Assembly: GCA_947453695.1 (NCBI GenBank) | Contig: CANGHW010000018.1 | Span: 1-64,000, forward strand | Length of the DNA: 64,000 bases | Source of the DNA: Opitutia bacterium | GTDB taxonomy: Bacteria > Verrucomicrobiota > Verrucomicrobiia > Opitutales > Opitutaceae | Direction: 5' to 3' | In this document: positions 12,272-46,477 of the stretch, piece after piece | Layout of the letters: each line of letters starts with the position of its first letter | How positions within the stretch are numbered: position 1 is the stretch's first letter | Position numbers and translations under genes: made by a program | The notes under the pieces: generated by a model | What the model saw: the letters and a program-made list of their open reading frames with translations, nothing else | The model's database searches: none | What the model was told of the DNA's origin: nothing

Positions 12272-13272
12272 GCACCGAACCTTTGCCGCCCTACGTTTAC
12301 CGCTGCGAAGATCGGTCCGTTTTGCTGGAGCCCTACAAGCGATGGGTGGTCCCGCTCTGGCGGTGGTGGGTGCCGCGTTGGCTGCCGGCCAACCTGATCA
12401 CCCTTGGTTCGAGTGCGTGCATGTGGGTGGTGTTTGGACTCTCGTTCAACGTCTCGGCTTTCAGCGTAACGACGCTGGTGGTGGCGATTCTCGCGCTCAC
12501 GCAGGCGTTCCTCGCCTATGACCACATCGACGGCATGCAGGCGAAAGCGACCGGCACGAGTTCGGCATTGGGAGAATATTTGGATCATTCGCTCGACACC
12601 TATCATGGGGCGATCCTCACCCTGTCCACGGTCGTGCTGATCGGCTCCGTGCCAGTGTCGGCCGCGATGATTTCGCTGTCGGCCGGATTCGTGGCGTTTG
12701 CCGCGACGATGGTGGAGGAGAAGGAGCGCGGGCAGTTGTTCTTCGGCTGGTTTGGCGCGGTCGAGTCGATGTTCCTGTTCATCTGTTTCTACGGATCGTG
12801 GCTGTTTCCGCCGGTGCGGGCATGGTGGGTCGCTCCGCTCTTCGGCGACTGGCCGGCCTACTGGATTCTGATCGGAATGGGCGTCTTCGGCTGCATCGGC
12901 GTGACGCTGGATTGTCTGCGCCGCATCGGGCGGCTGCCGCTGCAACTGGCGGTTTTCATCGGGCTCAACCTCTCGCTGGCGGTGGCGCTGGGGAAATTGA
13001 ATGCTCCGTTCTGGTGTCTGGTCGTGGCGATCTTCCTGCATGGCGGTGACTATGTGGGCCGCGTAATCGGCTCCCACTTGTTGCGCCGGCCGCACGTCTG
13101 GCCGGATTTCATCGCGCCGCTCCTCGCGGTGGCGCTCCTCTTCGGACCGTCTTGGCTCATGGTGTTGCTGCTCGGCTGGCTCGCGCTGCGCACGGCCTGG
13201 GGCGTCTGGAATGTAGTCTATCCCCTGCGTGGCAATTGGCGTTGGAAGAACCCGCCGCCGAAGCCCGCCTAA
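12268..13272 (+). CDS. CDP-alcohol phosphotransferase family protein
   Basis: ATG at 12268; DGMQAKATGTSSALGEYLDHSLD matches DGx2A[R/K]x8Gx3Dx3D; multiple TM segments. Confidence 0.85.
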   Translation: MSTEPLPPYVYRCEDRSVLLEPYKRWVVPLWRWWVPRWLPANLITLGSSACMWVVFGLSFNVSAFSVTTLVVAILALTQAFLAYDHIDGMQAKATGTSSALGEYLDHSLDTYHGAILTLSTVVLIGSVPVSAAMISLSAGFVAFAATMVEEKERGQLFFGWFGAVESMFLFICFYGSWLFPPVRAWWVAPLFGDWPAYWILIGMGVFGCIGVTLDCLRRIGRLPLQLAVFIGLNLSLAVALGKLNAPFWCLVVAIFLHGGDYVGRVIGSHLLRRPHVWPDFIAPLLAVALLFGPSWLMVLLLGWLALRTAWGVWNVVYPLRGNWRWKNPPPKPA

Positions 13273-19054: not shown

Positions 19055-21763
19055 TCAGGTTGAGACGCCGAGTTCGCCGCGGGTGAGTTGGAAATCGACG
19101 AAGCCAGCGGCGTTCGCGGCGGGGAGGCGGGTGCGCTCGACGACGGCGACGAGCAATGATTCGAGGGCGGCGAGGTTCGTGGCGGGGTCTTCTGTGAGGA
19201 AGAGATCGAGATCGTCGGGCGCGATGCGACTGCGTTGGGAAGACTCGGCAATTTGGATCACGGGGACGAGCGGGTGGCCTTGGCGCGCGTGGTCGCACAC
19301 GACGGTGAGGGCGAGGTGCGCGCCGCAGCCGCCGAAGCCGGTGAGGTTTTCGACCCAGTGCTCGGTCTCGCTCGCGATCACGTGGAGGCCGGCATGCGTG
19401 ATGGGTTGGCCATAGGCGAGGGTGGCGTGTGGCACGGTCGCGCCGAGGAGGGCAGTGCGGAAGGCGGGGTTGGCCAGGAGGGCGTCGCTCTCGGGAAGTA
19501 GGATCGAGCCGCCCGCGGCAAGGATCGTGTGCGCAAGCGTGGCGAGCGTGGTGGCGGTGGCGGCGGTCACGGGAGCTGCCGTAAGGAAGGCGAGGGTGAG
19601 CGCGCCGAGACTCGCGGGCACGGTGGGGGCGGGCGGGAGCGAAGCGAACTTTTCGGCGAACCACGCTTCGATCTTACCGAGGGAATTTTGGATGCCGCCG
19701 TCGAGTTGGACGCTGGCCCAGCCGAAGCGCGTGAGAGGGACTCCGGCGTTTTCGAGTTGGCGGCGCATGACGTCGTTCGGGACTTTTTCGCAGCCGTGCT
19801 CAAGGAAGAGGGCGGCGGCGACATTCGGGTGAGTGACGTAGCCGCGGTAGGTGCGGTGGAGGAGTTGGTGCATGGTCTCGCCGCCGAAGCCGCAGCCCTC
19901 GGTATGCGTGAGCGCGACGAAGCGCGTGATGCCGTAGGGGTGGCCGAGTTGTTTTTCGTTGAGTCGGTCGGCGGCGAGGCGGGCGATCTGCGCGGCGCAA
20001 AGGCTGGTGGGCAGGACGAGGGCGACGCGTTCGGTGGCGGGGCCGGAGTCAGTGGCAAAGAGCGTGAGTGCGGCGGGGGCGGCGGAGATGGCGGGCGCGA
20101 GGGAAAGCGGCGCGCCATCGGGCGCGGGGCGGGCGCGGAGCGTGGCGAGGCGCGAGGTGTCAGTTTGGCGCCAATTGCGCCAGAGGGAGACTTGGGAGTG
20201 GCCGGCGTGTTCGCCTTTGGTGCGGCGGCCGCCGGCGGTGGCGAGGAGGAGCTCGAAGTTTTCCGTGACAAGAGATTCGAAGGACTCGCCGTCGAGGTAG
20301 CGGCCGGCGTTGATGTCCATCTCGTGGATGAGGAGTTGGTGACGGCGAGAGGTGGTGGTGACCTTCAGTGTGGGGACGAAGGGGAAGTTGGTGATGGAGC
20401 CGTTGCCGGTGACGAAGAGGAAGAGGTTGCACCCGGCGGCGACCTGACCGGCGATGCCCTCCAGGTCGTTGCCCGGGCTGTTCATAAAGTGAAAGCCGGG
20501 CTGGGTCATGGGCTCGGCGTAGTCGATCACGTGATCGATGCGTGTGCGTGGGTCCTTCTTGTGCGCGGCGCCGAGGGATTTGAGGACGATGTTGTAGAGG
20601 CCGCGGAATTTGTTGCCGGCCGAGGGATTGGCCTCTGGGGTGACGCCGTGCCAGGCCAGGCGGGTTTTGAACGAATCGATCTTGGCAAGGAGGGCGCGGG
20701 CGGTGGCGACGTCGCGCGTGCTGCGGAGAATGTAGGACTCGGCGCCGACGATCTCGTCGGTTTCACAAAGATTCCCGGCGCCGCCATGGCGGATGACCTC
20801 ATGGACGAGGGCACCGGCGAGTGGATTGCCGGATACGCCGGAAAATGCATCGGAGCCGCCGCACTGGAGGGCAATACGGAGGGCGCTGATCGGTTCGGCG
20901 GTGCGCACGAGCGCATGCGCAGCGGGGAGCCAGCCGCGGACGAGACGCTCACCCTCGGCGAGGCCGGCGGCGAGTCCGCCGCTGAGCGTGAGGAAATGAT
21001 GCGGGACGTCGGCGAGCGGGTCGCCGCGCTGCTGCATGAAGTCGCGGAGCAGGGCGTTAGTGATGGGCTCGACGCCGTAGTCGACGGCGAGGACGGCGGC
21101 GACGTTGGGGTGGGTGATGAAGCCGGCGAGGCAGCGGAGGACCTCGGTAGTGTTGTTGGGCTGGTCGGGACCGCCGCCTTCGGTGTGGGCAATCGCGACG
21201 ATGCCATCGATGCCGGGATGGACGCGGGCGAGGGGCTGGAGGCGGGCGGCGAGTTGACGCGCGTAGCTGGCAGTGCGCGAAGTGGTGCCGAGGATGACGA
21301 TGAAGTTGCGCGTGCCGACACCGCGGCGGCCGGGGCGGCGGTAGCCCTGAAATGTGCGGGGCGTGGCGTAGAGCGGGACGGGCGGAGCGGGGACGAAGGT
21401 GGCTTCGTTCAGCGCAAAGGCGTCGAGCACGTCGACGAAGTTGGGGGCGGCGGGGAGCACGAGGCCGTCGACGCGGCGGACGGCGAGGGCGGCGAGCATC
21501 GAGGCGTTGGAGACGTAATCGCCGGGCGCGATGGGTGCGAGGGCGGTGCCAAATGGCAGGCCCCACGAGAGAAGCACGGCGCCGGTGGCGATGGGTGCGA
21601 CGGCGAAGCGGTGGCCCTCGAGGACGGTGTGAGTGAGGGCGCGCGGACCGGACGGGAGCGCAAGCACGGTGCCGACATCAAGGCGCCGGGTGGCAATAGC
21701 GACATTGTCGCCGGGAGCGGGCAGGCGGCTGACGGTTGCGAGATCAAGAGGGGCGTTCGCCAT
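19055..21763 (-). CDS. UxaA-family (altronate dehydratase-like) protein with a second UxaA-like segment appended
   Basis: 902 aa; QCGGSDAFSGVSGNP, NSPGNDLEGIAGQVAAGCNL; HTEGGGPD...THPNVAAVLAVDYGVE repeated later as HTEGCGFG...THPNVAAALFLEHGCEK. Confidence 0.8.
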   Translation of the reverse strand: MANAPLDLATVSRLPAPGDNVAIATRRLDVGTVLALPSGPRALTHTVLEGHRFAVAPIATGAVLLSWGLPFGTALAPIAPGDYVSNASMLAALAVRRVDGLVLPAAPNFVDVLDAFALNEATFVPAPPVPLYATPRTFQGYRRPGRRGVGTRNFIVILGTTSRTASYARQLAARLQPLARVHPGIDGIVAIAHTEGGGPDQPNNTTEVLRCLAGFITHPNVAAVLAVDYGVEPITNALLRDFMQQRGDPLADVPHHFLTLSGGLAAGLAEGERLVRGWLPAAHALVRTAEPISALRIALQCGGSDAFSGVSGNPLAGALVHEVIRHGGAGNLCETDEIVGAESYILRSTRDVATARALLAKIDSFKTRLAWHGVTPEANPSAGNKFRGLYNIVLKSLGAAHKKDPRTRIDHVIDYAEPMTQPGFHFMNSPGNDLEGIAGQVAAGCNLFLFVTGNGSITNFPFVPTLKVTTTSRRHQLLIHEMDINAGRYLDGESFESLVTENFELLLATAGGRRTKGEHAGHSQVSLWRNWRQTDTSRLATLRARPAPDGAPLSLAPAISAAPAALTLFATDSGPATERVALVLPTSLCAAQIARLAADRLNEKQLGHPYGITRFVALTHTEGCGFGGETMHQLLHRTYRGYVTHPNVAAALFLEHGCEKVPNDVMRRQLENAGVPLTRFGWASVQLDGGIQNSLGKIEAWFAEKFASLPPAPTVPASLGALTLAFLTAAPVTAATATTLATLAHTILAAGGSILLPESDALLANPAFRTALLGATVPHATLAYGQPITHAGLHVIASETEHWVENLTGFGGCGAHLALTVVCDHARQGHPLVPVIQIAESSQRSRIAPDDLDLFLTEDPATNLAALESLLVAVVERTRLPAANAAGFVDFQLTRGELGVST

Positions 21764-32922: not shown

Positions 32923-33076
32923 ATGGCGATGGCGATGGACACGATCCAGGTATCCCGGGAGGCGGCGCGGCGGTTTCACCGGCGGGCGGTGTTGCTGGAT
33001 GCACCGGTGGCGGACATCGGCGCGGCGCTGGACCACCTCGGTTACGTGCAGTTTGATCCGATCAATGTGTGCGGCC
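32923..33076 (+). pseudogene. YcaQ-like (HTH_42) winged-helix protein, 5' fragment
   Basis: DTIQVSREAARRFHRRAVLLDAPVADIGAALDHLGYVQFDPINVCGR, then family-like sequence stops and an AT-richer stop-containing sequence follows. Confidence 0.75.
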
Positions 33077-33248
33077 GCAAGCTCGACTCGATCTTATGTA
33101 GCAATTGTAGCGTATATTTAATTCGATACGAACTTTGATGTGTTGGCGATGGCGGAGTCTTCAAGAGTTACGTCGGACTGATGGTGTCATCGGGCTCAGC
33201 GGCATTTTCTTCGAACGAAAATACTCTGTTTCAAGCTGACAGAAACTG

Positions 33249-35459
33249 GTGCACGATTGTTGCGCCCATTGTGAAATACGCTCGCCTGCCATGGCAGCTT
33301 GGACTTCAGATGCGAAAACGTTGATTGCTAAAAGATACAACGCGTGGGCGGCGGCCCTGCTGATTGGTGCGGGGATCACCGCATATTCAGGAAGCCTCGC
33401 GGGGCCCTTCGTTTTTGACGATCCCTCTTCGATCACGGCGAACGCGACGATCCGCCATTTATGGCCGCTGTGGGACGTCCTCGCGACGCCGCAAGCCAAT
33501 GTCACGGTGCAGGGGCGGCCGCTGCTCAATCTTTCGTTTGCCATCAACTATGCGGTCAGCGGAGCGGATGTCTGGAGCTACCATGTTTTGAATCTGGCCA
33601 TCCATCTCGCGGCCGGCCTGACGCTCTTTGGCATCGTCCGACGGACGCTGACGGGCTCGCCGGGTGGCGCGCACTCCCCCACGTTTAGGCCCCAGTTAGG
33701 TGAACGATCGGTGCGAGAGCCCGTGGCCACGATGCTGGGGTTCATCGTGGCGCTCTGGTGGACACTTCATCCGTTGCAGACGGAGTCGGTGACCTACGTC
33801 GTGCAGCGAGCCGAATCCCTCATGGGGTTGTTCTATCTGCTGACGATTTATTGTTTCGTCAGATATGTGGAGTCTCCCGATGGGGAAGGTGCGAAGCGCA
33901 GGCGATGGGCGGTGTTCTCCATTCTGGCCTGTCTCGCCGGGATGGGGACCAAAGAGGTGATGGTATCGGCACCCGTGATGGTGCTGCTGTTTGACCGGAC
34001 TTTTGTGGCCGGGAATTTTCGACAGGCTTGGCGACAGCGGCGCACCTACTACGGAGCTCTGGCTGCGACGTGGATCTTGCTCGGTCTGTGTCTGCTGCGG
34101 GGAGGTGGCACCCGGGGAGGTGCCATCGGCTTCGGAATCGGCGGAACGTGGTGGACTTATAGTCTGACGCAATTTGAAGCGATCGGGCGATATCTTCTCC
34201 TGTGCGTTTGGCCGCACCCGCTCGTGTTTGAATACGGAGCGTTCAAGGTTCAGTCGTTGAGCGAGGTTCTGCCGTGGGCGATCGTCGTGATGCCGCTATT
34301 GGCCGGGACCGTGTGGGCCCTTTGGCGACGACCGGTCCTCGGTTTTTTGGGGGCGTGGTTTTTTGCAATCCTTGCGCCCACCAGCTTGGTGCCGGGAACC
34401 AGCCAGATGATCGTCGAACACCGCCTCTATCTGTCGTTGGCGGCCATGCTCGTCGTGATCGTTTGCGGAGGGTTCTCAATACTCATGGCGCGCGGGGTGG
34501 GCGCCCAAGCGAGCGCGCCAGGGCAACGGACCGAGCGCTCGCCCCTTGGTCCGCTATTAACCCAGACGCGGGGGTTTTTATTGGCCGGATTCATCGTGGC
34601 AGTGGCGTGCGGTGGTGTGACGGCAGCGCGCAACGTTACCTACGGCAGCGAACTGGAGTTGTGGACGGACACGGTGGCAAAACGTCCGGCCAACCCGGTG
34701 GCGCGTGCCATGTTGGCCGAGGCACTGTTTTCGTCGGGACGACTCGGTCCTGCTCTCGCAGAGTATGAAGCCGCCGTGAAATTGGATCCGACTTTTTTTG
34801 TCGCGCAGGAGCGATTAGGCGAACTGTTGCTCCGGCTGGGGCGTCCGGCGGAGGCGGCGGAGCACTTTTCGGCAGCCTTGCGCCTGCGCCCGGATTTTGC
34901 CGATGCGCACAACAATCTTGGGATATTGTTGGCGGAGAACGGTCGTGCCGCCGAGGCGCTTCGCTACGTCGAGCGGGCAATTGAGCTGAAGCCGGAATAC
35001 CCGGAGGCCCATCTCGCTCGGGCGAACGTGCTCGCTGACTTGGGTCGAAATCCCGAAGCGATTCACTCCTACGAAGTGGCACTTCGGCTAAAACCGGAGA
35101 TGGCCGGGGCCGAATACAATTTGGCCAACGCGCTGAGCGCCGTGGGCCGAAGTGAGGAGGCGGTCGGGCACTATCGGGCGGCACTTCGAATCAGGCCGAA
35201 TCATCCCGCCGCCGCTTTCAATCTGGCCAACAATTTGGCTGGTCTCCGGCGGATGGAGGAGGCCGTCGTCCAGTATCGTGAAGCGATTCGCTTGAATCCC
35301 GCTTTTGCCGAGGCGGAAATGAATCTCGGCAGTGCGCTCTTTGAGCTGGGCCGCTTGGACGAAGCGGAAGCGCACTACCTGACGGCGATGCGGCTTGATC
35401 CCAGGATGGAGGACATACGCGAAAGCCTCGCGCGGCTACGGGCTCGCCGGCGCCGTTGA
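33249..35459 (+). CDS. TMTC-like polytopic membrane protein with C-terminal TPR repeats
   Basis: GPFVFDDPSSITANATI, GRPLLNLSFAINYAVSG, WWTLHPLQTESVTYVVQRAESLMGLFYL; tandem TPRs such as FADAHNNLGILLAENGRAAEALRYVERAIELKPEYPEAH. Confidence 0.85.
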   Translation: MHDCCAHCEIRSPAMAAWTSDAKTLIAKRYNAWAAALLIGAGITAYSGSLAGPFVFDDPSSITANATIRHLWPLWDVLATPQANVTVQGRPLLNLSFAINYAVSGADVWSYHVLNLAIHLAAGLTLFGIVRRTLTGSPGGAHSPTFRPQLGERSVREPVATMLGFIVALWWTLHPLQTESVTYVVQRAESLMGLFYLLTIYCFVRYVESPDGEGAKRRRWAVFSILACLAGMGTKEVMVSAPVMVLLFDRTFVAGNFRQAWRQRRTYYGALAATWILLGLCLLRGGGTRGGAIGFGIGGTWWTYSLTQFEAIGRYLLLCVWPHPLVFEYGAFKVQSLSEVLPWAIVVMPLLAGTVWALWRRPVLGFLGAWFFAILAPTSLVPGTSQMIVEHRLYLSLAAMLVVIVCGGFSILMARGVGAQASAPGQRTERSPLGPLLTQTRGFLLAGFIVAVACGGVTAARNVTYGSELELWTDTVAKRPANPVARAMLAEALFSSGRLGPALAEYEAAVKLDPTFFVAQERLGELLLRLGRPAEAAEHFSAALRLRPDFADAHNNLGILLAENGRAAEALRYVERAIELKPEYPEAHLARANVLADLGRNPEAIHSYEVALRLKPEMAGAEYNLANALSAVGRSEEAVGHYRAALRIRPNHPAAAFNLANNLAGLRRMEEAVVQYREAIRLNPAFAEAEMNLGSALFELGRLDEAEAHYLTAMRLDPRMEDIRESLARLRARRRR

Positions 35460-35603
35460 TTGACTCCGGCTATCGCCAAGCGGTGGAGCGATGCGGGCGC
35501 GATTTCTGGATTTTTGCAGACGAACCACCGGTCGAAATCCCGCGCACTATCTTTGTTTTTTCCGGCCGCTACTTTGGGTTGATTCCGGCGGCTGCGCGCA
35601 ATT

Positions 35604-36176
35604 TTGTCGTCTCATCGTTTGGCCATGCCCCCTGAAAATTCCGAGGAGGTTCGTTGGTTTTCGGAGGAAGTCCGACCGCACGAATCGTCGTTACGCGCGT
35701 ATTTGACGAAAGCTTTTCCGTCGATTCGAGACGTCGACGACGTCGTCCAAGAGTCGTATCTGCGGATTTTACGCGCGCGTTTGGTGCACCCGATCACGTC
35801 CGCCAAGGCGTTCCTGTTTAAGGTTGCCCGGCACGTGGCGATCGACGGCGTCCGACGTGATGGAATTTCCCCGATTGATCGCACGAGGGATTTGGCGCGG
35901 CTAAACGTCTTAGAAGAGGGCCCCGGTATTGCCGAACGGCTCAATCGAAATGAAAAAATTGCCCTGCTGGCGGAAGCCATATTTTCGCTGCCAAGCCCAT
36001 GCCAAGAGGTGGTGATATTGCGCAAATTGAAGGGGCTGTCGCAGCGGGAGGTCGCGGCGCGTTTGGGCGTGACCGAAAAGGCCGTCGAGGCGCAGGTATG
36101 GCGCGGCCTGAAGCGTTGCGAAAAATTCCTGCGCAAGCGGGGGGTGGGCAGCCTCTACGACGATGAGCGGAAATAA
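35604..36176 (+). CDS. ECF sigma-70 family RNA polymerase sigma factor (FecI-like)
   Basis: DVDDVVQESYLRILRAR, SLPSPCQEVVILRKLKGLSQREVAARLGVTEKAVEAQVWRGLKRC. Confidence 0.88.
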   Translation: MSSHRLAMPPENSEEVRWFSEEVRPHESSLRAYLTKAFPSIRDVDDVVQESYLRILRARLVHPITSAKAFLFKVARHVAIDGVRRDGISPIDRTRDLARLNVLEEGPGIAERLNRNEKIALLAEAIFSLPSPCQEVVILRKLKGLSQREVAARLGVTEKAVEAQVWRGLKRCEKFLRKRGVGSLYDDERK

Positions 36177-37032
36177 GAATCAAGAGTCAGGGCGGTCCCC
36201 ATTGGACTGGCCGCTGGAAACGGGCGGAGCAGATGAGGTGCTGGGGGAGATCGAGCGCTTGCGCGGTCTCCGAAAAAAGCGGCGCCGACGCATTGCCCTG
36301 CTGACGAGCGTTGCCGCCTGCCTGGTAGCTGGCGGTTGGTTCCGATGGCAGGTCGGAGAAACCAAGGCGGCTTGGTCCATGGCTGACTCGCCATTGCGAC
36401 GGGAATTGCCGGACGGTTCAGTGGCCGAATTGAAAGCGGAAGCCGAAATCGCGGTAGATTACAGCGGCGCGCACCGAAAGATTTCGCTGCTCCGTGGCGC
36501 GGCGCACTTCAAGGTGGCGAAAAACGCGAGTCGGCCCTTCGTGGTCAATGCCGGTGGCATTCAGGTTCGGGCCGTCGGGACGGCTTTTGAGGTCGTGCTG
36601 AGCCAAACGTCGATCGCGGTGGTGGTGGATGAGGGGCGGGTGGCGGTAGAAGAGGCCGGAGCGGGTGAGCATGCGGTGCGGACCTACGTCAGCGCAGGCA
36701 ACCAAGTGGTGGTTGATCTGCCGTCGTCGTCGACGCCGGCCGACTACGCCCCTGTGGCCCTGACCGGGGCGGGTGCAAAGTCGGGTAAAGCCGCCCTGGC
36801 GCAGGTTCCGCGCATGGACCTCGCCGCGACACCGCTCTCAGAGGTCGTAGCGGTATTTAATCGGTATAGCGACAGACAGCTTGTTCTGGCGGACCCTGCG
36901 CTGGGCGCAGTGCAATTAAGCGGTGTCCTACGGGCGGATAACGTGGACGCGTTGTTGAAGCTCTTGGCGACCAACTATGGGATCAAGCCGGAGATCCGCG
37001 GGAACGAAATTGTTCTGGGTCGGGCGCCCTGA
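36163..37032 (+). CDS. FecR-family anti-sigma/regulatory protein
   Basis: RRELPDGSVAELKAEAEIAVDYS...ISLLRGAAHFKVAKNASRPFVVNAGGIQVRAVGTAFEV; overlaps the sigma gene. Confidence 0.87.
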   Translation: MSGNKNQESGRSPLDWPLETGGADEVLGEIERLRGLRKKRRRRIALLTSVAACLVAGGWFRWQVGETKAAWSMADSPLRRELPDGSVAELKAEAEIAVDYSGAHRKISLLRGAAHFKVAKNASRPFVVNAGGIQVRAVGTAFEVVLSQTSIAVVVDEGRVAVEEAGAGEHAVRTYVSAGNQVVVDLPSSSTPADYAPVALTGAGAKSGKAALAQVPRMDLAATPLSEVVAVFNRYSDRQLVLADPALGAVQLSGVLRADNVDALLKLLATNYGIKPEIRGNEIVLGRAP

Positions 37033-37164
37033 GTTTGTCGCGCAGTGGCGCACCAGACTGGTGGATCGTTTCCGTGTGATTTTTTGCGAGGGATCGGCCG
37101 CCGTGGATCGTCTCAGGTGGGTGGCAGCGCTGTTGCTTTCTATCCAATTACCCTACTTCAGATC

Positions 37165-40100
37165 ATGAATATCCGCCTTAGTGACCTCGTAATCTTCTTC
37201 GGACTCGTTTTTTGCGCCGCGCTCGGAGAGGCCGCCGAGCCGAATTTCCGCAAGATCGATATCCCCGGTGGCGAGGCGGTGCAGACGCTCAAACAGCTCT
37301 CCGTGCAATCGGGTGCCGAGGTGGTGTTCGCCACCAATGCGGCCAAAAATGTCACGACTAACCCGGTGCAGGGGAGTTATTCGGCCTTGCAGGCGGCGAC
37401 GAACATGCTCGTCGGGACAAATCTCTCGGCCTCACAAGATGAGAAAACAGGCGCTATCATCATCGGGCGGCCGGTCGGGGGAGCGCAGGCAGTCCCAAAC
37501 GCGGCGCAGACCGACCGCGACGTGCTCCAGTTGAATCCTTTCGAGGTATCGGTGGGCAAAGATAATAGCTATGGCGCGCTCAATTCCAATTCTATCACAT
37601 CGTTCACCACCGAGCTGAATAAGTTGCCGGTGAGCGCCGATATCTTCGACCAGACTTTCATGAACGATCTGGGGGTCATGAGCGTGGAGGAGATGGTGCA
37701 GGGCTTCGCAGCTGGAGCGGCGGTTGCCTCCACGAGCCCGGCCACGAGCGCATCCGCCCAGCAGCAATATGACCGCAACGGTTCGGCCCTGTCGCTGCGC
37801 GGACTCGCCGCCACGTCGATTCTGCGCAACGGCTTTTATCCCGCCGCTCTCACCGGAGTGGGCTATACCACCAATTTTGACCTCCAGCAGGTTGAGGTGA
37901 TCTCTGGACCGCAATCGCTGCTATATGGAGCCGGCGGGGGTGGCGGTGTCGTGAACTACATTTCGAAGCAGGCGAAGTTCAATTCCGCATCGTCCGGAGA
38001 AGTTAAATTTCAGGTCGACCAGTATGGCAAAAAAATGGGCACGGTGGACTACAACCTCGGCGGAAAATCGCTCGCGGTGCGCATGGCGCTCATCAACCAA
38101 CAGGTGGGCGGCCGGCGCTTGTATATCGGCGGTCCGCTGGTGGGCGGCTATGTGCAAGTGGCGGCCCGCCCGCTGAAGAACACGACCGTGCGGGTAGAAT
38201 ACGAGAAGACTTCATGGAGCCGCATCAACAACACCGACAATACCCTGACCGCGCTCAGCACGGCCAATGACGCTCGCAACGGTCAGTCACTGCACTACCT
38301 GCTCGCGACCAATCAAATCAACGCCGCCGCCAACGGTGCACCCAGCGGAGCCGGAGTGATCGCCAACGGTAAAATCGATTGGGACAACGTGGACTCTTTC
38401 GGCAGTGCGATGGTCGGAGAATTAACGCGCAGCCAGTTTGCCACGGCGCAGGTTGAGACGGTCTGGACGCGTTGGCTGTCGACGCGGATCGCGGGTGGCT
38501 ACACCACCCGCTTCAACAAAAAGCTGGGCAACGCTGGCGTCGATTTTCTCGCGCCCAACGCTGCCGGCAATCCGCTCGGAGTGTGGGCGATGGATTACAA
38601 GAGCTCGCTGACCACCGCGTCGGCGCTCTGGCAGGGCTCGCAGGCGAAGAACATCCGGGTCTCTGCGCTGTTGAGCAACGATTTGTTTGGCCGCCGCGCG
38701 AAGAGCCAGACGGTGTTTGGTGGAGACTTTACGAGCAATTCGTTTGCCGCATCCGGGCTTTATTATGTCGCCGCGGATGCGGACTTCAAACCGGTCAGCA
38801 CGGGGCTGCCTGCCAACAACGGGTTCACGAACATCCCCGTGGTCTATTGGCCGATCACGAATGGCCCGGTGAAGTATCCTTTGGTCGGTTATGACGGGAG
38901 CCGGATCACGATTGGCGGTAAGAATTACGTGCAGGTGCCGACCAACGCACCCGTTGACGGTTTGGTCTCGCCCAGCAATCCCCTGGGGCTGACGGGTAAC
39001 TCCACCGGTTCCTGGCGTCCCACCCACGGCAACCAAAAGGGCATCTATCTGGCCAACTTTACCACGTGGCTGGATGGTCGTCTAACGACGCTGGTGGGGG
39101 CGCGAATTAGCAGCGTCTACAGTCTGCTTTCGACCGAGAATAATTCGAGGACGCAACCCAGTCTGAATTCGATTAGTCAGGAAACCGGGAAGGACTTCAG
39201 TGCCGGGGTGAACTTCCGCTTGTTATCGTGGCTTCGGCCCTATGCGCAAATCTCGGATTCGTTCAGCCCGCCGGCCGCACTCAATCGTGACCCCTATGGA
39301 GCGGCCCAGCTGCCGTCCAAGGCCATCGGCACGGAGGCCGGCGTTAAGATCACCAATCAGGATGGCACGGTGTCAGGCTCGATTGGCTTTTACCGGACGA
39401 ATGCCAAGAATGAACAAACCTCGTTTTCGGTGAACATCACCGGATTCATCAATCCGGTGGGTTTGAATGGCCGCCTCGGCGGATCACCCAGTAACTGGAT
39501 CAATGTTGATCGAAAGTCGGAAGGAATGCAGGCGACCTTCACGGCCAACCCGAAACCCAATTGGCGCATGCGTCTTTCGGGCAGCTGGCAATACGCCACC
39601 AATCAAAGCAACAACAGCTTCGCTCAACTTTATAACGACCAGTTTTACGCGAACAGTCTCGGTCAGGTGACCTACAAGGACGGGACGGTGGTCTACGTCA
39701 ATTCGACCGCGACGCGCGCAACCGTTTCCACCGCGGCGGCGGCCGGCGCCGTGCCTCTGACCATTACGATGATGGGCACCCCCGGGAATCTTTATTACGC
39801 CAATCAAGGCGCCGTGCACGGTGCGATCAATGCATCTTCGGGAGCCGCGACTATTCTCAATGCTCTCAGTGACCCTCAGGTTGCACTCCATGGTCCAATC
39901 CTGACCGGAGCGGTAGGCCTGCCCATTTCACAAATGCAAATAAAGCCGAACTTCACGCCGGTGGGAACGATTCCGATCATGACCAGCGGGGACCAAGTGC
40001 AGGGATATCCGCAGATTTCAGTGAATTATGAGTCGGTCTATACTTTCGATCAGGGGTTTCTCAAGGGACTCCGCGCGGGTGGTGCGTTCCAAGGCACGTG

Positions 40101-40383
40101 GAAGTATTCGGCCTTCTATTACTATCCGGTGGGACTCAGTAACAACCCGACGAACCGGTCGCTGTATTCCTGGCCAACGCGCACGCTGTTCACGGGAATA
40201 TTGGGGTATGATTGGTCTTACCGGCGCTACCGGATTTCACATCAGTTGAATGTGAACAATGCCTTCAATCACTACCACATCGTGATTATTCCGAATTACA
40301 TCAACGGCTGGGCCGGGCCGAACAACGCAACGTTCGATACGCAGCCCCGCAGCTACGTGTTCACGACCCGGGTTAGTTTCTAA
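37165..40383 (+). CDS. TonB-dependent receptor with N-terminal STN signalling domain
   Basis: FRKIDIPGGEAVQTLKQLSVQSGAEVVFATNAAK (STN); plug QQVEVISGPQSLLYGAGGGGGVVNYISKQ; C-terminal SYVFTTRVSF. Confidence 0.88.
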   Translation: MNIRLSDLVIFFGLVFCAALGEAAEPNFRKIDIPGGEAVQTLKQLSVQSGAEVVFATNAAKNVTTNPVQGSYSALQAATNMLVGTNLSASQDEKTGAIIIGRPVGGAQAVPNAAQTDRDVLQLNPFEVSVGKDNSYGALNSNSITSFTTELNKLPVSADIFDQTFMNDLGVMSVEEMVQGFAAGAAVASTSPATSASAQQQYDRNGSALSLRGLAATSILRNGFYPAALTGVGYTTNFDLQQVEVISGPQSLLYGAGGGGGVVNYISKQAKFNSASSGEVKFQVDQYGKKMGTVDYNLGGKSLAVRMALINQQVGGRRLYIGGPLVGGYVQVAARPLKNTTVRVEYEKTSWSRINNTDNTLTALSTANDARNGQSLHYLLATNQINAAANGAPSGAGVIANGKIDWDNVDSFGSAMVGELTRSQFATAQVETVWTRWLSTRIAGGYTTRFNKKLGNAGVDFLAPNAAGNPLGVWAMDYKSSLTTASALWQGSQAKNIRVSALLSNDLFGRRAKSQTVFGGDFTSNSFAASGLYYVAADADFKPVSTGLPANNGFTNIPVVYWPITNGPVKYPLVGYDGSRITIGGKNYVQVPTNAPVDGLVSPSNPLGLTGNSTGSWRPTHGNQKGIYLANFTTWLDGRLTTLVGARISSVYSLLSTENNSRTQPSLNSISQETGKDFSAGVNFRLLSWLRPYAQISDSFSPPAALNRDPYGAAQLPSKAIGTEAGVKITNQDGTVSGSIGFYRTNAKNEQTSFSVNITGFINPVGLNGRLGGSPSNWINVDRKSEGMQATFTANPKPNWRMRLSGSWQYATNQSNNSFAQLYNDQFYANSLGQVTYKDGTVVYVNSTATRATVSTAAAAGAVPLTITMMGTPGNLYYANQGAVHGAINASSGAATILNALSDPQVALHGPILTGAVGLPISQMQIKPNFTPVGTIPIMTSGDQVQGYPQISVNYESVYTFDQGFLKGLRAGGAFQGTWKYSAFYYYPVGLSNNPTNRSLYSWPTRTLFTGILGYDWSYRRYRISHQLNVNNAFNHYHIVIIPNYINGWAGPNNATFDTQPRSYVFTTRVSF

Positions 40384-40466
40384 ATTCGGATGCTCGTGCT
40401 GCCTGCCAACTACTTTTCCCGGATGATGGCCAGGATGTGTTGCAATGCGTTGAACGCACGCAGGGC

Positions 40467-41711
40467 ATGAGCGTTACCACAAACTCAGGTGCGATCGCCG
40501 GCGACGCGGAGCCACGCGCCCCCTCAGGTCGAATACTCTCCGTCGATGCTTTACGCGGCTTTGATATGTTCTGGATCATCGGGGGAGAGGAGGTCGCAAA
40601 AGCGCTGCAGCCAATGAGCGACGGCCCGGTGGTTACGGCCGTCGTGACCCAACTTAAGCACGTTGAGTGGGAAGGTTTCCGCTTCTTCGACGCGATCTTC
40701 CCGCTGTTCCTGTTTCTCGTGGGCGTGTCCATCGTGCTTTCGCTTGATCGCATGCGAGCGACGGAGGGACGAGGGGTGGCTTTCGGCCGCATCGCGCGCC
40801 GTAGCCTGCTGCTTTTCGCCGTGGGCATTTTCTACTACGGCGGTGTCGCCCGGACATGGCCGGACGTGCAGATCTTGGGGGTTCTTCCGCGGATCGCGCT
40901 CTGCTATTTCTTCGCGGCTACGCTGTATGTGTTCGTGCCGAGGAAAGGCATCGTCGTGGCGGCGGCGCTTTGTCTGGTGGGTTACTGGGCGATGATGATG
41001 TTTGTGCCGTTCCCCGACGTGAATCTGGCGCACGGCACGATTGGCAAGCGCGGCACCCAGGCGGAGGCTAAGCCGGCCGCGGAATTGCTCGCGGGAGCGA
41101 CGAGCACCGTCCACGGCATTTTTGCCGAGGGGCGAAACCTCGCTCACTACGCCGACTATCGCCTGCTCCCGGGCAAAAAGCGCAATCTTTACTACACCAA
41201 CGAGGGTCTGCTCAGCACAGTTTCGGCGGTCGCCACCACGTTGTTCGGCATCATGGCCGGGTGGTTGCTGACGAGCCCGCGTTGGACGGAAAGACAGAAG
41301 GTCGTGTGGTTACTCGGTGCGGGCGCGGCCGGTGTGGCGCTGGGCGTGCTGTGGGGACTGCAATTCCCCATCATCAAACGGATCTGGACCTCGTCCTTTT
41401 GTTTGGTGGCGAGCGGTTGTGCCGCGATGCTATTGGGCGGTTTCTATCTCATCGTGGATGTGTGGCGGTGGCAGAAATGGTGCGTGCCGTTTCTGTGGAT
41501 CGGTTCGAATGCCTTGGCCATTTATCTGGCCGTGAATCTGGTCGATTTCGAGGCGATCGCGGCCCGTTTGGTCGGCGGTGATGTGAAGGAGTATTTCGAC
41601 CTGCATCTCGCCAAGGGTTGCGGGAACCTGCTGGTCGCGCTCGTCGGACTGCTATTGCCGGTGTTGCTGGTGCGTTTTCTCTACCAGCGGAAGATCTTTA
41701 TCCGGTTATGA
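40467..41711 (+). CDS. Heparan-alpha-glucosaminide N-acetyltransferase-like (NagX/DUF5009) membrane protein
   Basis: RILSVDALRGFDMFWIIGGEEVAKAL...FFDAIFPLFLFLVGVSIVLSL; multiple TM helices. Confidence 0.82.
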   Translation: MSVTTNSGAIAGDAEPRAPSGRILSVDALRGFDMFWIIGGEEVAKALQPMSDGPVVTAVVTQLKHVEWEGFRFFDAIFPLFLFLVGVSIVLSLDRMRATEGRGVAFGRIARRSLLLFAVGIFYYGGVARTWPDVQILGVLPRIALCYFFAATLYVFVPRKGIVVAAALCLVGYWAMMMFVPFPDVNLAHGTIGKRGTQAEAKPAAELLAGATSTVHGIFAEGRNLAHYADYRLLPGKKRNLYYTNEGLLSTVSAVATTLFGIMAGWLLTSPRWTERQKVVWLLGAGAAGVALGVLWGLQFPIIKRIWTSSFCLVASGCAAMLLGGFYLIVDVWRWQKWCVPFLWIGSNALAIYLAVNLVDFEAIAARLVGGDVKEYFDLHLAKGCGNLLVALVGLLLPVLLVRFLYQRKIFIRL

Positions 41712-43207
41712 ACAAACGCTTCACCGCGCACTGTCGTCGGCTCCTGGTCAGCGCGGGATGCGCCGCACTTTTTTTGGCGGGCCGGTCGCACGGCGCCGGG
41801 ATATTGGCGCCACAAACTGCGATCGTTACCGTCTATCCGGAAAAACCTGGAATGAAAATCCCGGCGGACTTTCTCGGCTTCAGCTGTGAGAAGAAGATTC
41901 TGTCGCGGGATTGTTTTCAGCCGCAGAACACGGCGCTGATCCGCTTGTTTCAGTATCTCGGACCCGGGGTCTTGCGGATTGGCGGCCATGCGGTGGAGTC
42001 CACGTTCTGGTCCGCGGGTGATTCGGGCCCGCTCAAGGCGATGGCGAATGGCAAAGGCTACGAACCGGAGGAGCCGGTGACTCTAGGTCCGCGGTCGATC
42101 GATGGTTTGTTTGGTTTCGCCAAGGAAAGCGGTTGGCGGGTGATCTATGGATTGAACCTCGGGGCCAATCGTCCGGACATGGCAGCGGAGGAGGCGGCTT
42201 ACGCCCTGCAGGCAGGTGGGGCTGCGGTGTTGGCCCTAGAAGTCGGAAATGAGCCGAATCTCTTCAGCAGGAATGGCAAGAGCGCGAAGAACGATGCTCG
42301 GGACCTCAAGTTGCTCGTCTTGCGCGACGGTAAATACACCTACGAGAGATTTCGCGCCGAGTTTGAAGCCTACTACCGCGCGATCGTCGCCAAGTCGCCC
42401 CACGCACCGTTTGCCGGTCCGGGAACTACGAAGACCTGTGACTGGGTGCCGGGCTTTGCGCGTGATTTCAAGGGGCGGGTCGCACTCATCACTTCCCACA
42501 CCTATCCGCTTTCCGCCAAGGAGGAAGATCCGAAGTCGCCACGATTCGCGTCGATCGAAAACCTGCTGAGCACCAACATCGAGGAAGATTGGTTGCCGAA
42601 ACTCAAGGCAGCGACGGCGGCAGGTCTCCCTTGGCGTCTCGGGGAGTGCAATACGGCCTCAGGCGGAGGAAAACCCGGCGTCAGCAACGTGTTTGTCGCA
42701 GCGCTCTGGTGCGCCGACTTTTTGTTCAAAGTGGCCGAACGTGGCGGAGCGGGGGTAAATCTGCACGGCGGTTTTACGCCGGGCCGCTATTCGCCGATCT
42801 ATTTTCTCAACGGGGAATACCATCCGGCTCCGATCTACTACGGAATGCTGCTGTTTCGTCAGGCGGCGCAAGGGCGGGTCTTGCCCGTGGACTGCCAAAC
42901 ATTGGCCAAACTCACCGCCCACGCCGTATTGGGCGACGATCACAAGTTGCGTGTGGTGCTCATCAACAAAGACCTGACGCAACCGGTAAGGGCGACGATC
43001 GTGGCAGGTCCACTGCACACCAAAGCCCACGTTGTCAGACTTTGCGCGCCGTCTCCCACGTCTGCGGAGGGCGTGACACTCGCGGGCAGTGCTATCGCGA
43101 AGGATGGAACTTGGTCCCCGCAACCGGCCGAGGTAGTGCTGTGCGCGAACGGACACTATGATGTGACGTTACCACTCTCGAGTGCGGCAATGGTAACTAT
43201 CGAATGA
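41708..43207 (+). CDS. Secreted glycoside hydrolase, GH79-like (beta-glucuronidase/heparanase clan)
   Basis: Signal peptide; LGFSCEKK, VLALEVGNEPNLF, GECNTASGGGKPGVSNVFVAALWCADFLF, GVNLHGG. Confidence 0.75.
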   Translation: MNKRFTAHCRRLLVSAGCAALFLAGRSHGAGILAPQTAIVTVYPEKPGMKIPADFLGFSCEKKILSRDCFQPQNTALIRLFQYLGPGVLRIGGHAVESTFWSAGDSGPLKAMANGKGYEPEEPVTLGPRSIDGLFGFAKESGWRVIYGLNLGANRPDMAAEEAAYALQAGGAAVLALEVGNEPNLFSRNGKSAKNDARDLKLLVLRDGKYTYERFRAEFEAYYRAIVAKSPHAPFAGPGTTKTCDWVPGFARDFKGRVALITSHTYPLSAKEEDPKSPRFASIENLLSTNIEEDWLPKLKAATAAGLPWRLGECNTASGGGKPGVSNVFVAALWCADFLFKVAERGGAGVNLHGGFTPGRYSPIYFLNGEYHPAPIYYGMLLFRQAAQGRVLPVDCQTLAKLTAHAVLGDDHKLRVVLINKDLTQPVRATIVAGPLHTKAHVVRLCAPSPTSAEGVTLAGSAIAKDGTWSPQPAEVVLCANGHYDVTLPLSSAAMVTIE

Positions 43208-43297
43208 AAGGCGATCCGCGGTGGAGTTCGCACCTTCACTAGCCGCGTATGCAGAATCGGATGGCGAACTCATTTTTTGTGCGCCCGGCGAGCATAG

Positions 43298-43318
43298 TGG
43301 CAGAAGGGCAACACATGG
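43298..43318. repeat. 21-bp direct repeat, left copy
   Basis: tggcagaagggcaacacatgg; 19/21 identical to 43600-43620. Confidence 0.8.
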
Positions 43319-43319
43319 G

Positions 43320-43532
43320 TCATGTGTTGACTTTGCTTTTTTCGGTCCGCGGATCATAGCCGAGGAAGGCGATGATCGGGATCATGGCCTGCTTGGTCGG
43401 ACGGCATACGCCCCGTTCCCAGTTGCTCACGCTCAGCCAGGTATAGCCCGTCGCTTCAGCGACTTGTTGTTGCCCCCAGCCGAGTTCCAGGCGGCGCTTC
43501 TTGATGTGCTCGCCGATGGTCTTCGGGTGCAT
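43320..43532 (-). CDS. XRE-family small HTH regulator
   Basis: MHPKTIGEHIKKRRLELGWGQQQVAEATGYTWLSVSNWERGVCRPTKQAMIPIIAFLGYDP. Confidence 0.8.
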   Translation of the reverse strand: MHPKTIGEHIKKRRLELGWGQQQVAEATGYTWLSVSNWERGVCRPTKQAMIPIIAFLGYDPRTEKSKVNT

Positions 43533-43599
43533 CTTCACGCCGCCTTTCAGTGCCCACCAGTGCGGTGAAACTAGGCTGCGTTTAGCGCGTATTTCGAAC

Positions 43600-43620
43600 T
43601 GGTAGAAGGGCAATACATGG
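43600..43620. repeat. 21-bp direct repeat, right copy
   Basis: tggtagaagggcaatacatgg; abuts the right junction of the inserted block. Confidence 0.8.
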
Positions 43621-43621
43621 A

Positions 43622-44605
43622 TGCGGCCACATGCAGGAGCATATCCTGCGGCATCGCGTGGTCGGTTATCGCGAGGGGGATTTGCAGCGTCGGCTGCATG
43701 GCGAGGGCGCGCCGCTCCCGGCGGAGCAGCGCACGGCCTTTGAGCATCACTTGCCGGATTCGGCGGTCCTGGTGGCGTTTCCGCACGAGGCCTGGCCGCA
43801 TCTGCTCGGCGCGATGCGCGCCCGCACGCGGCGAAGCGGGGCGTGGTCGGGTCGGCTCACGCCGCGCGAGCGCGACTTGGCGGAGCGAATCATGGGCGAG
43901 ATCGGCGAGCGCGGGGCGCTGTCGTCCGAACAGATCGAGGATGATGGCCGCCGCGGCCGGCAGGTGTGGGGCAAGGCGACCCTCGCGAAGTCCACGCTGC
44001 AGAAGTTGTTTTTTCACGGCCGAGTCTTGATCGCGCGGCGCGAAAACAACCGGCGGTATTACGATCTGCCCGAGCGGGTGCTGCCGGCTGCGGTGCTGGC
44101 CCGACCCGAACCCACGGCGGAAGAGACCGCACGCTGGCTCGTGCATCTCAAGCTGCGGCAGCGGCGCCTCGTGCAGCTGAAGCGCGGCGAGCTGCCGCTC
44201 GTGGAGGACGCGGTGGTGCGGGTGCAGGTCGAGGGGTGTCCGCCGCTGTATGTGCGACGGGAGGACGCGCGGGAATTCGACGCGGCGGAGCAGCGCTGGC
44301 AAGAGACGACGGCAGAGCGGCCGGTGCTGCTGCTGGCGCCGCTCGATCCGCTCATCTACGACCGGCGGGTGACGGAGCGGTTGTGGGATTTCGACTACAC
44401 GTGGGAGGTCTACACGCCCCCGACGAAACGCGTGCGCGGTTACTATGCGCTGCCGGTGCTGGCGGGCACGGAAATCGTGGGGCACGTCGATCCGAAGGCA
44501 GAGCGGGACGCGGGGCGGCTGCGCGTGGTGTCGCGGCGCGTGCGACGCGGGCACCGGGTGATGCCGGCGGTGGCGGACTTGGCGGGGTTCTTGGGGTTGC
44601 GGTAG
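43622..44605 (+). pseudogene. YcaQ-like (HTH_42) winged-helix protein, 3' fragment
   Basis: CGHMQEHILRHRVVGYREGDLQRRLHGEG...LLLAPLDPLIYDRRVTERLWDFDYTWEVYTPPTKRVRGYYALPVLAGTEIVGHVDPKAERDAGRLRV is the family's C-terminal region. Confidence 0.82.
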
Positions 44606-45610: not shown

Positions 45611-45713
45611 CTTTGGCGTCGCCTGGAGTTTCATGGGGCGGTCGGTTGGCCGCGAAGGAGCGCCCGAGTCCTTCGGCGTGGTGACAGCTCCCGCCAGATC
45701 TCCGCCCGGATGC

Positions 45714-46028
45714 GACAGCGCGCCGCCGGTTCATGACAGACGCCCGCCGGGCCACGACAGCGTGCCGCCAGCTCACGACGGCGTGCCGCCGGGTGATGAC
45801 AGACGCGCGCCAGCTCATGTCACCGCGCCGCCGGTTCGCGACAGAAGGCCGCCAGCTCACGACAGCGCTCCGCCAGCTCACGACAACACACTGCCGGGTC
45901 CCGACAGCGTTCCGCCAGCTCGCGACAGCAAGCCGCCAGCTCACGCCAGCGAGCCGCCGGGTCGTGACAGAAGGCCGCCGGGTCACGACAGCGCGCCGCC
46001 AGCTCATGACAGCAAGCCGCCGGGTCGC
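45714..46028. repeat. 21-bp minisatellite, 15 good units with exact period
   Basis: Unit starts at 45714, 45735, 45756, 45777, 45798, 45819, 45840, 45861, 45882, 45903, 45924, 45945, 45966, 45987, 46008; consensus about gacagcgcgccgccagctcac. Confidence 0.93.
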
Positions 46029-46477
46029 GACAGATCGGTATCTGGCTGCGATTCAAGGCGATCTGCGCCGAGTGAATTTGGGTGGTTAAGGCGTGTGATG
46101 TCCGGGCCGGGAGGAGATCGGCCGCAGACATGCAGATTTTTTCACTTTTTTCGGAGAAATCGGCGAATCCGCGAATCTCGCCGGTAAAGAGTAGTATGAA
46201 CATCACTCTTATTCGAAGCGGCCGCGGATGCGGCGATGGCCCGGAGTTCCCGGCGAGGCTCCGCGGGCTAGGTCATAAATCTGCAGAAAAATGCCGGCAA
46301 AACGGCGGGAGCACCTTTCTCCGGTCTCGGGCCGGACTCACGCAGTCGATCGGGTCGGATCGAGGCGATCGGCCGGCACCTTTCCGCCTGCGTCAGCCGC
46401 GCCCGTTCGAACCCGGGCCGGGGGCGAAACGGTCGGCCCCGGGGCGGAAACCACTTTGTCAGTAAAACCTAGATACA

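Follow-up and report, generated by a model that had tools for sequence, protein, structure and literature searches.

The window, a 64,000-nucleotide stretch of an Opitutia bacterium genome (contig CANGHW010000018.1), carries an AlkZ/YcaQ-family gene (ycaQ) in two pieces on the same strand, parted by a block of carbohydrate-type cargo genes. The right end of this block very probably is the attachment site (attR) left by a large serine recombinase (LSR) whose own gene is split when it integrates. The codons ...NVCGR stop at 33079 and the remainder of ycaQ restarts at 43622. The N- and C-terminal fragments complement each other, overlap by three codons and have the same orientation. Intact relatives (66-70% identical) are continuous over the joint (...QIDPINVCGRMHDLILRNRV, ..QIDPINVCGR|MHDLILRNRV..). 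A profile search of the 6.38 Mb source genome, a draft assembly of 356 contigs, gave a single match to the AlkZ-like family model PF06224, at 43628-44542; the C-terminal part alone scores 110 bits (E 2e-31) against a cut-off of 25.9 and so contains an AlkZ-like domain, the full protein being interrupted. A full-length relative used as query also recovered the N-terminal piece, at 32944-33108. Because neither search matches anywhere else, the two fragments are the only ycaQ pieces in this genome. The original prediction, made from the letters of the window, that a block had been inserted into a YcaQ-family gene is thus borne out, and the repeat that it reported is present as TGCGGCC[G/A]CA at both junctions (33070-33079 and 43622-43631).

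Table 1. Features of the interrupted ycaQ locus, in window coordinates.
Feature	Position	Strand	Basis or remark
ycaQ N-terminal part	32935-33079 (coding to ~33078)	+	about 48 codons, MDTIQVSREAARRFHRR...LGYVQFDPINVCGR
Left junction TGCGGCCGCA	33070-33079	+	TG of the core, then 8 bp of ycaQ sequence from the B' side; without the element's P arm
Cargo: membrane/TPR protein, 736 aa	33249-35459	+	Pfam TPR
Cargo: ECF sigma factor	35604-36176	+	PF08281, PF04542
Cargo: FecR-type anti-sigma protein	36163-37032	+	PF04773
Cargo: TonB-dependent receptor	37045-40383	+	PF07715 (TonB plug)
Cargo: HGSNAT_cat/DUF5009 membrane acetyltransferase-like protein	40437-41711	+	PF07786 above cut-off
Cargo: glycoside hydrolase with GH79 C-terminal domain (GH79C)	41618-43207	+	PF16862
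Left edge of conserved XRE module, att-like palindrome TGGCAGAAGGGCAACACATGG-GT-CATGTGTTG	43298-43334		comparison of six loci
Orphan XRE/HTH domain (HTH_31/HTH_3), detached C-terminal tail of LSR	43323-43613	-	frame open up to the core at 43622
P' arm of attachment site, AGAAGGGCAATACATGGA	43604-43621	+	junction comparison across genomes
attR core dinucleotide TG, first two bases of the repeated TGCGGCCACA	43622-43623	+	inferred from G110 element ends
Displaced ycaQ C-terminal part	43622-44605 (from 43622/43631)	+	open frame, 324 codons from M

The right junction is not peculiar to the window. A homologue of the orphan XRE gene adjoins ycaQ at the identical codon in four other genomes (G005, G033, G110 and G125), and in G005, a member of the same genus, a contig starts with the window's right-end sequence fused to ycaQ at that codon. 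Read from the P' arm through the dinucleotide TG into ycaQ, the junctions are AGAAGGGCAATACATGGA-TG-CGGCCACATGCAGG in the window, AGATGGGCAATGCATCGA-TG-CGGGCGAATGCATG in G005, AGATGGGCAACACATGGA-TG-CGGGCGGATGCACG in G033, AGATGGGCGATACATCGA-TG-CGGGCGCATGCACG in G110 and AGATGGACAACCCTTCGA-TG-CGGTCGGATGCAGG in G125. Repetition of the right junction in four other assemblies means that it is no assembly artefact. When the displaced 3' parts of ycaQ in the window and in G005, G033 and G110 were forced into one clade, the cost was 168 log units (AU test, p=5.6e-6). The tested interrupted copies therefore do not form one lineage, and insertion at this site has taken place repeatedly and site-specifically. 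The original prediction had proposed looking for the same right-end sequence beside other interrupted genes: it does recur beside ycaQ, at the same codon, in these four genomes, and no second copy was found in the window's own genome.

An intact relative of the element provides the rest of the structure. G110, a metagenome-assembled genome (MAG) of the Opitutaceae, has a 40 kb element in ycaQ (contig JAEUHC010000001.1). Its ycaQ N-terminal part is followed at once by CATGTGTTGCTCTTC, which corresponds to the P' arm in inverted form, and next by a gene for a 499-aa serine recombinase, the left attachment site (attL) reading AACGTCTG|AGCATGTGTTGCTCTTC. The recombinase combines PF00239 (Resolvase, E 6e-32) and PF07508 (Recombinase, E 3e-18) in one protein; such a recombinase is absent from the window itself. 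The XRE gene lies 40 kb from the LSR gene and adjoins the C-terminal part of ycaQ. When the two ends of the element are joined at their shared TG they form a single frame with no stop, ..SSKKLTEEQHML-IDVSPIYQIEIRAKRSLVS..XRE..stop (EEQHML-IDVSPIYQ). Since the joined ends are one unbroken LSR-XRE frame, the recombinase gene itself contains attP; in its integrated state the LSR terminates a few codons on, within host DNA (..EEQHMLRR-stop). In serine integrases the exchange between attP and attB takes place across a core of 2 bp. The attL and attR sites resolve into attB and attP with a core of this length, TG in G110 and CA on the opposite strand in elements that occupy comM; the window keeps only attR intact. 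An attP within the recombinase gene, with the two pieces of one frame parted, is found in G110, in the comM elements and through the natural fusions described below.

We scanned GTDB with the G110 LSR as query and kept 80 loci, the best matches of that one query. The 80 homologues span many phyla; the genomes were nearly all assembled from metagenomes, and mis-binned contigs may account for some of the taxon labels (two archaeal ones). At four of the 80 loci (L222, L227, L264 and L279) LSR and XRE form one open, unsplit frame. These natural fusions read over the joint, as in QRNVMAALPFGKLRL and QRNFTPALPFCDLTL; L267 is a frame-broken fusion and L223 is cut by a contig end. The other LSRs end shortly past a conserved joint, ..SSxEMxxxQRN(L/F), or continue into host DNA. 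Forty-five LSR loci run antisense into comM (LPAxFMLVAAMNPC) by a heuristic motif screen that covered comM only, so that other targets are under-described. An XRE-family match is present in 26/29 LSR-bearing genomes, including all four with fused genes, where it sits in a frame of 648-739 aa.

When contigs were matched by length, 10 of the GTDB set were seen to carry LSR and XRE apart on one contig. In nine of these (in G277, G284, G287, G274, G294, G286, G293, G292 and G280) the XRE shares the strand of the LSR and sits at the far end, as predicted. The window's own family shows the same layout in G110, in three contigs of G155 and in G176, for a total of 14 of 15 same-contig pairs. The comM elements allowed a reciprocal join: in five genomes from five phylum- or class-level groups (G277, G284, G274, G280 and G286), one dinucleotide position, or its equivalents within a shared 2-5 bp, rebuilds both genes at once, restoring ..FMLVAAMNPC|PCGY.. 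and fusing LSR ..QRNF|IPALPFC..XRE, out of 112-204 frame-compatible joins considered per element. Inspection by eye added yjbQ (core TT; join MHITTASVFINDD), a TIR-like gene and a yicG/UPF0126 gene as targets. The LSR frames of L243, L254 and L269 finish in peptides such as KGWDSNPRLGYP, typical of tRNA-gene read-through, and some members may target tRNA genes. At L232, in an alphaproteobacterial MAG, the LSR frame continues into comM in the sense direction (..ATNACRCGYLGDP..), a junction that is hybrid or in opposite orientation relative to the other comM cases. Close relatives of the LSR in plasmids or phages were not found beyond LSRs of Firmicutes elements about 27-33% identical.

We propose that the right boundary of the block is the attR of an element in ycaQ, that the LSR gene of this element, with its internal attP, was split by integration, and that the window holds a decayed copy, a reading to which we assign a probability of about 0.86. 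The element would have entered ycaQ at codon CGR, with attB as ...GTC-TG-CGGGCGCATG... Its attP would lie within the LSR coding sequence, between the recombinase body and the C-terminal XRE/HTH domain, and the circular form would encode a long LSR-XRE protein. Crossover at TG would then split the gene: the LSR body would stay at attL, where host DNA provides its stop codon, and the XRE tail would be orphaned at attR, pointing away from ycaQ. In the window the left LSR half would have been lost or replaced, and only a related intact LSR-XRE acting in trans could now still move the carbohydrate-type cargo. The sequences show the identity of the right end, its recurrence at the same site, the split gene, the shared core, the in-frame reunion in relatives and the natural fusions; from these we infer catalysis, loss of the LSR half in the window, mobilisation in trans and any regulatory role that splitting may have. 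The original prediction had offered a short target duplication or a crossover core for the repeat, and an unrecognised mechanism for the transfer. A target duplication is not supported: the matching junctions and the intact element identify the right junction as an LSR site (P' arm, TG, ycaQ). The mechanism would be that of a serine recombinase that splits its own gene on integrating.

Several observations weigh against this proposal. Simple LSR integration predicts a different left end: the P arm CATGTGTTGCYCTTC is missing there and ycaQ reaches 8 bp beyond the core. Tblastn found no cognate LSR in the window, and in its own genome only LSRs that are 27% identical. Gene order flanking ycaQ was not conserved among the relatives compared, and a syntenic empty site could therefore not be demonstrated. 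In the wider set, the XRE of one same-contig pair (G299, L212) is on the wrong strand, and the sites of the joins in G287, G292, G293 and G294 could not be pinned down, mostly for want of identified targets.

The left end has parallels. The window retains an intact XRE tail, the P' arm and the C-terminal part of ycaQ, with no normal attL at the other end of the block; since its left end has no P arm, it is a remnant and not a complete element. The 9-10 bp repeat exceeds the length of an LSR core, which likewise points to a rearranged left end. Other LSR-less derivatives (the G005 comM derivative, G033 and G113) likewise have target sequence at the left. In G005 an intact comM (L148, G005:C28, 3619-5160) is followed 14 kb on by an XRE gene and, against it, a further 3' part of comM (19070-19564). 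The two comM copies are 89% identical in nucleotides over the stretch that runs from ACCCCTGTAAGTGCGG and ends precisely at the stop codon, past which the sequences are unrelated; the cargo between the copies consists of sulfatases and a TonB receptor, with no integrase. In G033 a displaced copy accompanies a complete ycaQ, and in G113 the ycaQ N-terminal part finishes about 20 bp beyond the core. A further genome, G076, contains several comM 3' fragments of differing lengths (C51:1515-1703, C51:6205-6465, C58:143767, C38:34291 and C91:22629) and a comM N-terminal part beside an LSR gene, as if successive elements had reused comM after its restoration.

These derivatives suggest how the left end might have arisen: incoming homologous DNA, by transformation or homologous recombination, would have restored an intact ycaQ before the island, with loss of the LSR half, and a later deletion beside the core would have truncated it in the window. 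This history would complement the proposed integration and is consistent with the restored targets and displaced copies in G005 and G033 and with the N-terminal part of G113 that runs past the core. It is nonetheless tentative, as it would be a coincidence for a deletion to end only 8 bp beyond the core, and no intermediate was found. A different origin would make the 302-bp XRE unit (43298-43622) a small mobile cassette that targets conserved genes, with the 10 kb cargo arriving separately. Unrelated sequence starts exactly at the left edge of the unit in six loci, near-direct repeats stand 302 bp apart, and in G007 the unit is located outside ycaQ. We consider this improbable, however, because the LSR at the other end of the elements in G110, G155, G176 and comM lacks a tail that the XRE supplies in frame, because natural LSR-XRE fused genes exist, and because comM-type XREs have no downstream palindrome.

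The repeat flanking the block could also be taken for a 9-bp target duplication, TGCGGCCRC, made by a DDE-type transposon. The presence of TGCGGCC[G/A]CA on both sides is what such an event would leave, but the block has neither a transposase nor terminal inverted repeats, and its right end is an LSR attachment site found at the same codon in other genomes; a transposon is therefore very unlikely. Least credible of all is the chance juxtaposition of two unrelated gene fragments, or an assembly join. The draft state of the assembly and a left junction seen in this assembly only would allow for it, whereas the fragments are complementary and in the same orientation and the right junction recurs in four other assemblies. 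The outcomes that the original prediction named as fatal to it, two separate intact genes or an artefact at a junction, were accordingly not encountered for the fragments or for the right junction; the left junction offers no comparable check.

The cargo agrees with the description of a carbohydrate-type island that has lost its autonomous machinery. The block has a GC content of 0.595, below the 0.639 and 0.623 of its flanks, in the comparison that the original prediction had proposed. Its claim that the block includes no recognisable integrase or transposase stands in part: a Pfam scan of the block found neither, and tblastn found no trace of a cognate recombinase in the window, but the XRE reading frame at the right end is itself a recombinase fragment. 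The GH79C glycoside hydrolase probably starts downstream of 41711. Homologues of its protein occur in G240 and G241, two further genomes of the family, where none of the remaining cargo genes accompanies them, and the original left boundary of the cargo was thus not found. Downstream of the C-terminal part of ycaQ, at about 45633-46187, a short-period repeat gives an open frame on either strand (DSVPPAHDSKPPAHD.. / RRQLTTACRRVMT..) and is probably a variable tandem repeat.

At the left edge of the XRE module, sequence further leftward is wholly unrelated in all six loci compared. The palindrome at 43298-43334 is possibly an operator or a second attachment site. In the form GCAACACATG-N-CATGTGTTG this att-like palindrome lies just beyond the XRE stop in the ycaQ-type group (window, L041, L042, L081, L083 and L084), and its placement suggests possible binding of the XRE domain to the arm sequence. 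Comparison with comM-type XREs, in which the downstream palindrome is absent, led us to reject it as a general XRE feature and to regard it as peculiar to the ycaQ-type group. The palindromes had prompted us to consider an origin as an integron cassette, a group I intron or an IS200/605-type element, ideas that we abandoned when the LSR fusion came to light. To the left of the XRE module, the window (43245-43265) and L041 (about 13219-13239) have in common the motif GCGTAT(G/T)CAGAATCGGA(T/C)GG in otherwise unrelated flanks. A related XRE group at L045, L046, L089 and L090 (G009 and G076) adjoins genes resembling formylglycine-generating (SUMF1-like) enzymes, which are candidates for a further target gene.

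The window can be regarded as a remnant of a known type of event, LSR integration, in which the self-splitting gene is the new part. Self-disrupting ('suicidal') recombinases have been described as exclusive to archaea (PMC8371274). In the archaeal SSV-type integrases, as here, attP lies in the integrase gene and integration parts the gene to the two ends of the element; split remnants persist, and rescue in trans by an intact relative was proposed there (PMC8371274). Those enzymes are tyrosine recombinases, whereas here the protein is an LSR with Resolvase and Recombinase domains in mainly bacterial hosts, the catalytic part stays whole and only the extra HTH tail is lost, and the targets are mostly protein genes (ycaQ, comM, yjbQ, yicG-type). 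The elements thus fall outside the archaeal SSV/pTN3/pT26-2 tyrosine families but work in a similar way. The int gene of Myxococcus phage Mx8 also has attP in its coding sequence and acquires a new 3' end and altered activity on integration (PMC6070905); it encodes a different integrase, belongs to a single phage and exchanges a short C-terminus, whereas here a whole XRE domain is detached as an orphan gene. Islander-type islands restore their targets too, but use tyrosine integrases in tRNA and tmRNA genes (PMC4383910); here restoration is seen only in LSR-less derivatives, and the gene in the window is not restored. A survey of LSRs lists comM as a frequent target (12.4% of site-specific LSRs; PMC10083194), and a word search of its main text found neither attP inside a recombinase gene nor an XRE tail. 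A word search of the literature, with most subscription journals outside its coverage, likewise found no paper on a self-splitting serine recombinase or an XRE tail.

Our results point to a family of bacterial serine recombinases that splits itself, with ycaQ, comM and other conserved genes as targets and Mx8 as a near-precedent. This would explain seemingly integrase-free islands that have only a small XRE gene at one edge, and it provides a search handle, an orphan XRE directly beside a 3' half of comM or of ycaQ. Among serine integrases, which serve widely as genome tools, this family offers recombinases that may carry attP and directionality control in one gene, with a natural, detachable tail that might set direction. 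It is conceivable, though we hold the idea with less than even confidence, that splitting is a built-in directionality switch, in which the long LSR-XRE of the circular element favours integration, and integration, by removing the tail through a covalent change of the gene, locks the element in; release would then come from an incoming intact LSR-XRE or from the orphan XRE, which would serve as a directionality factor in its own right. If so, bacterial serine integrases would have evolved the logic of the archaeal 'suicidal integrase' independently.

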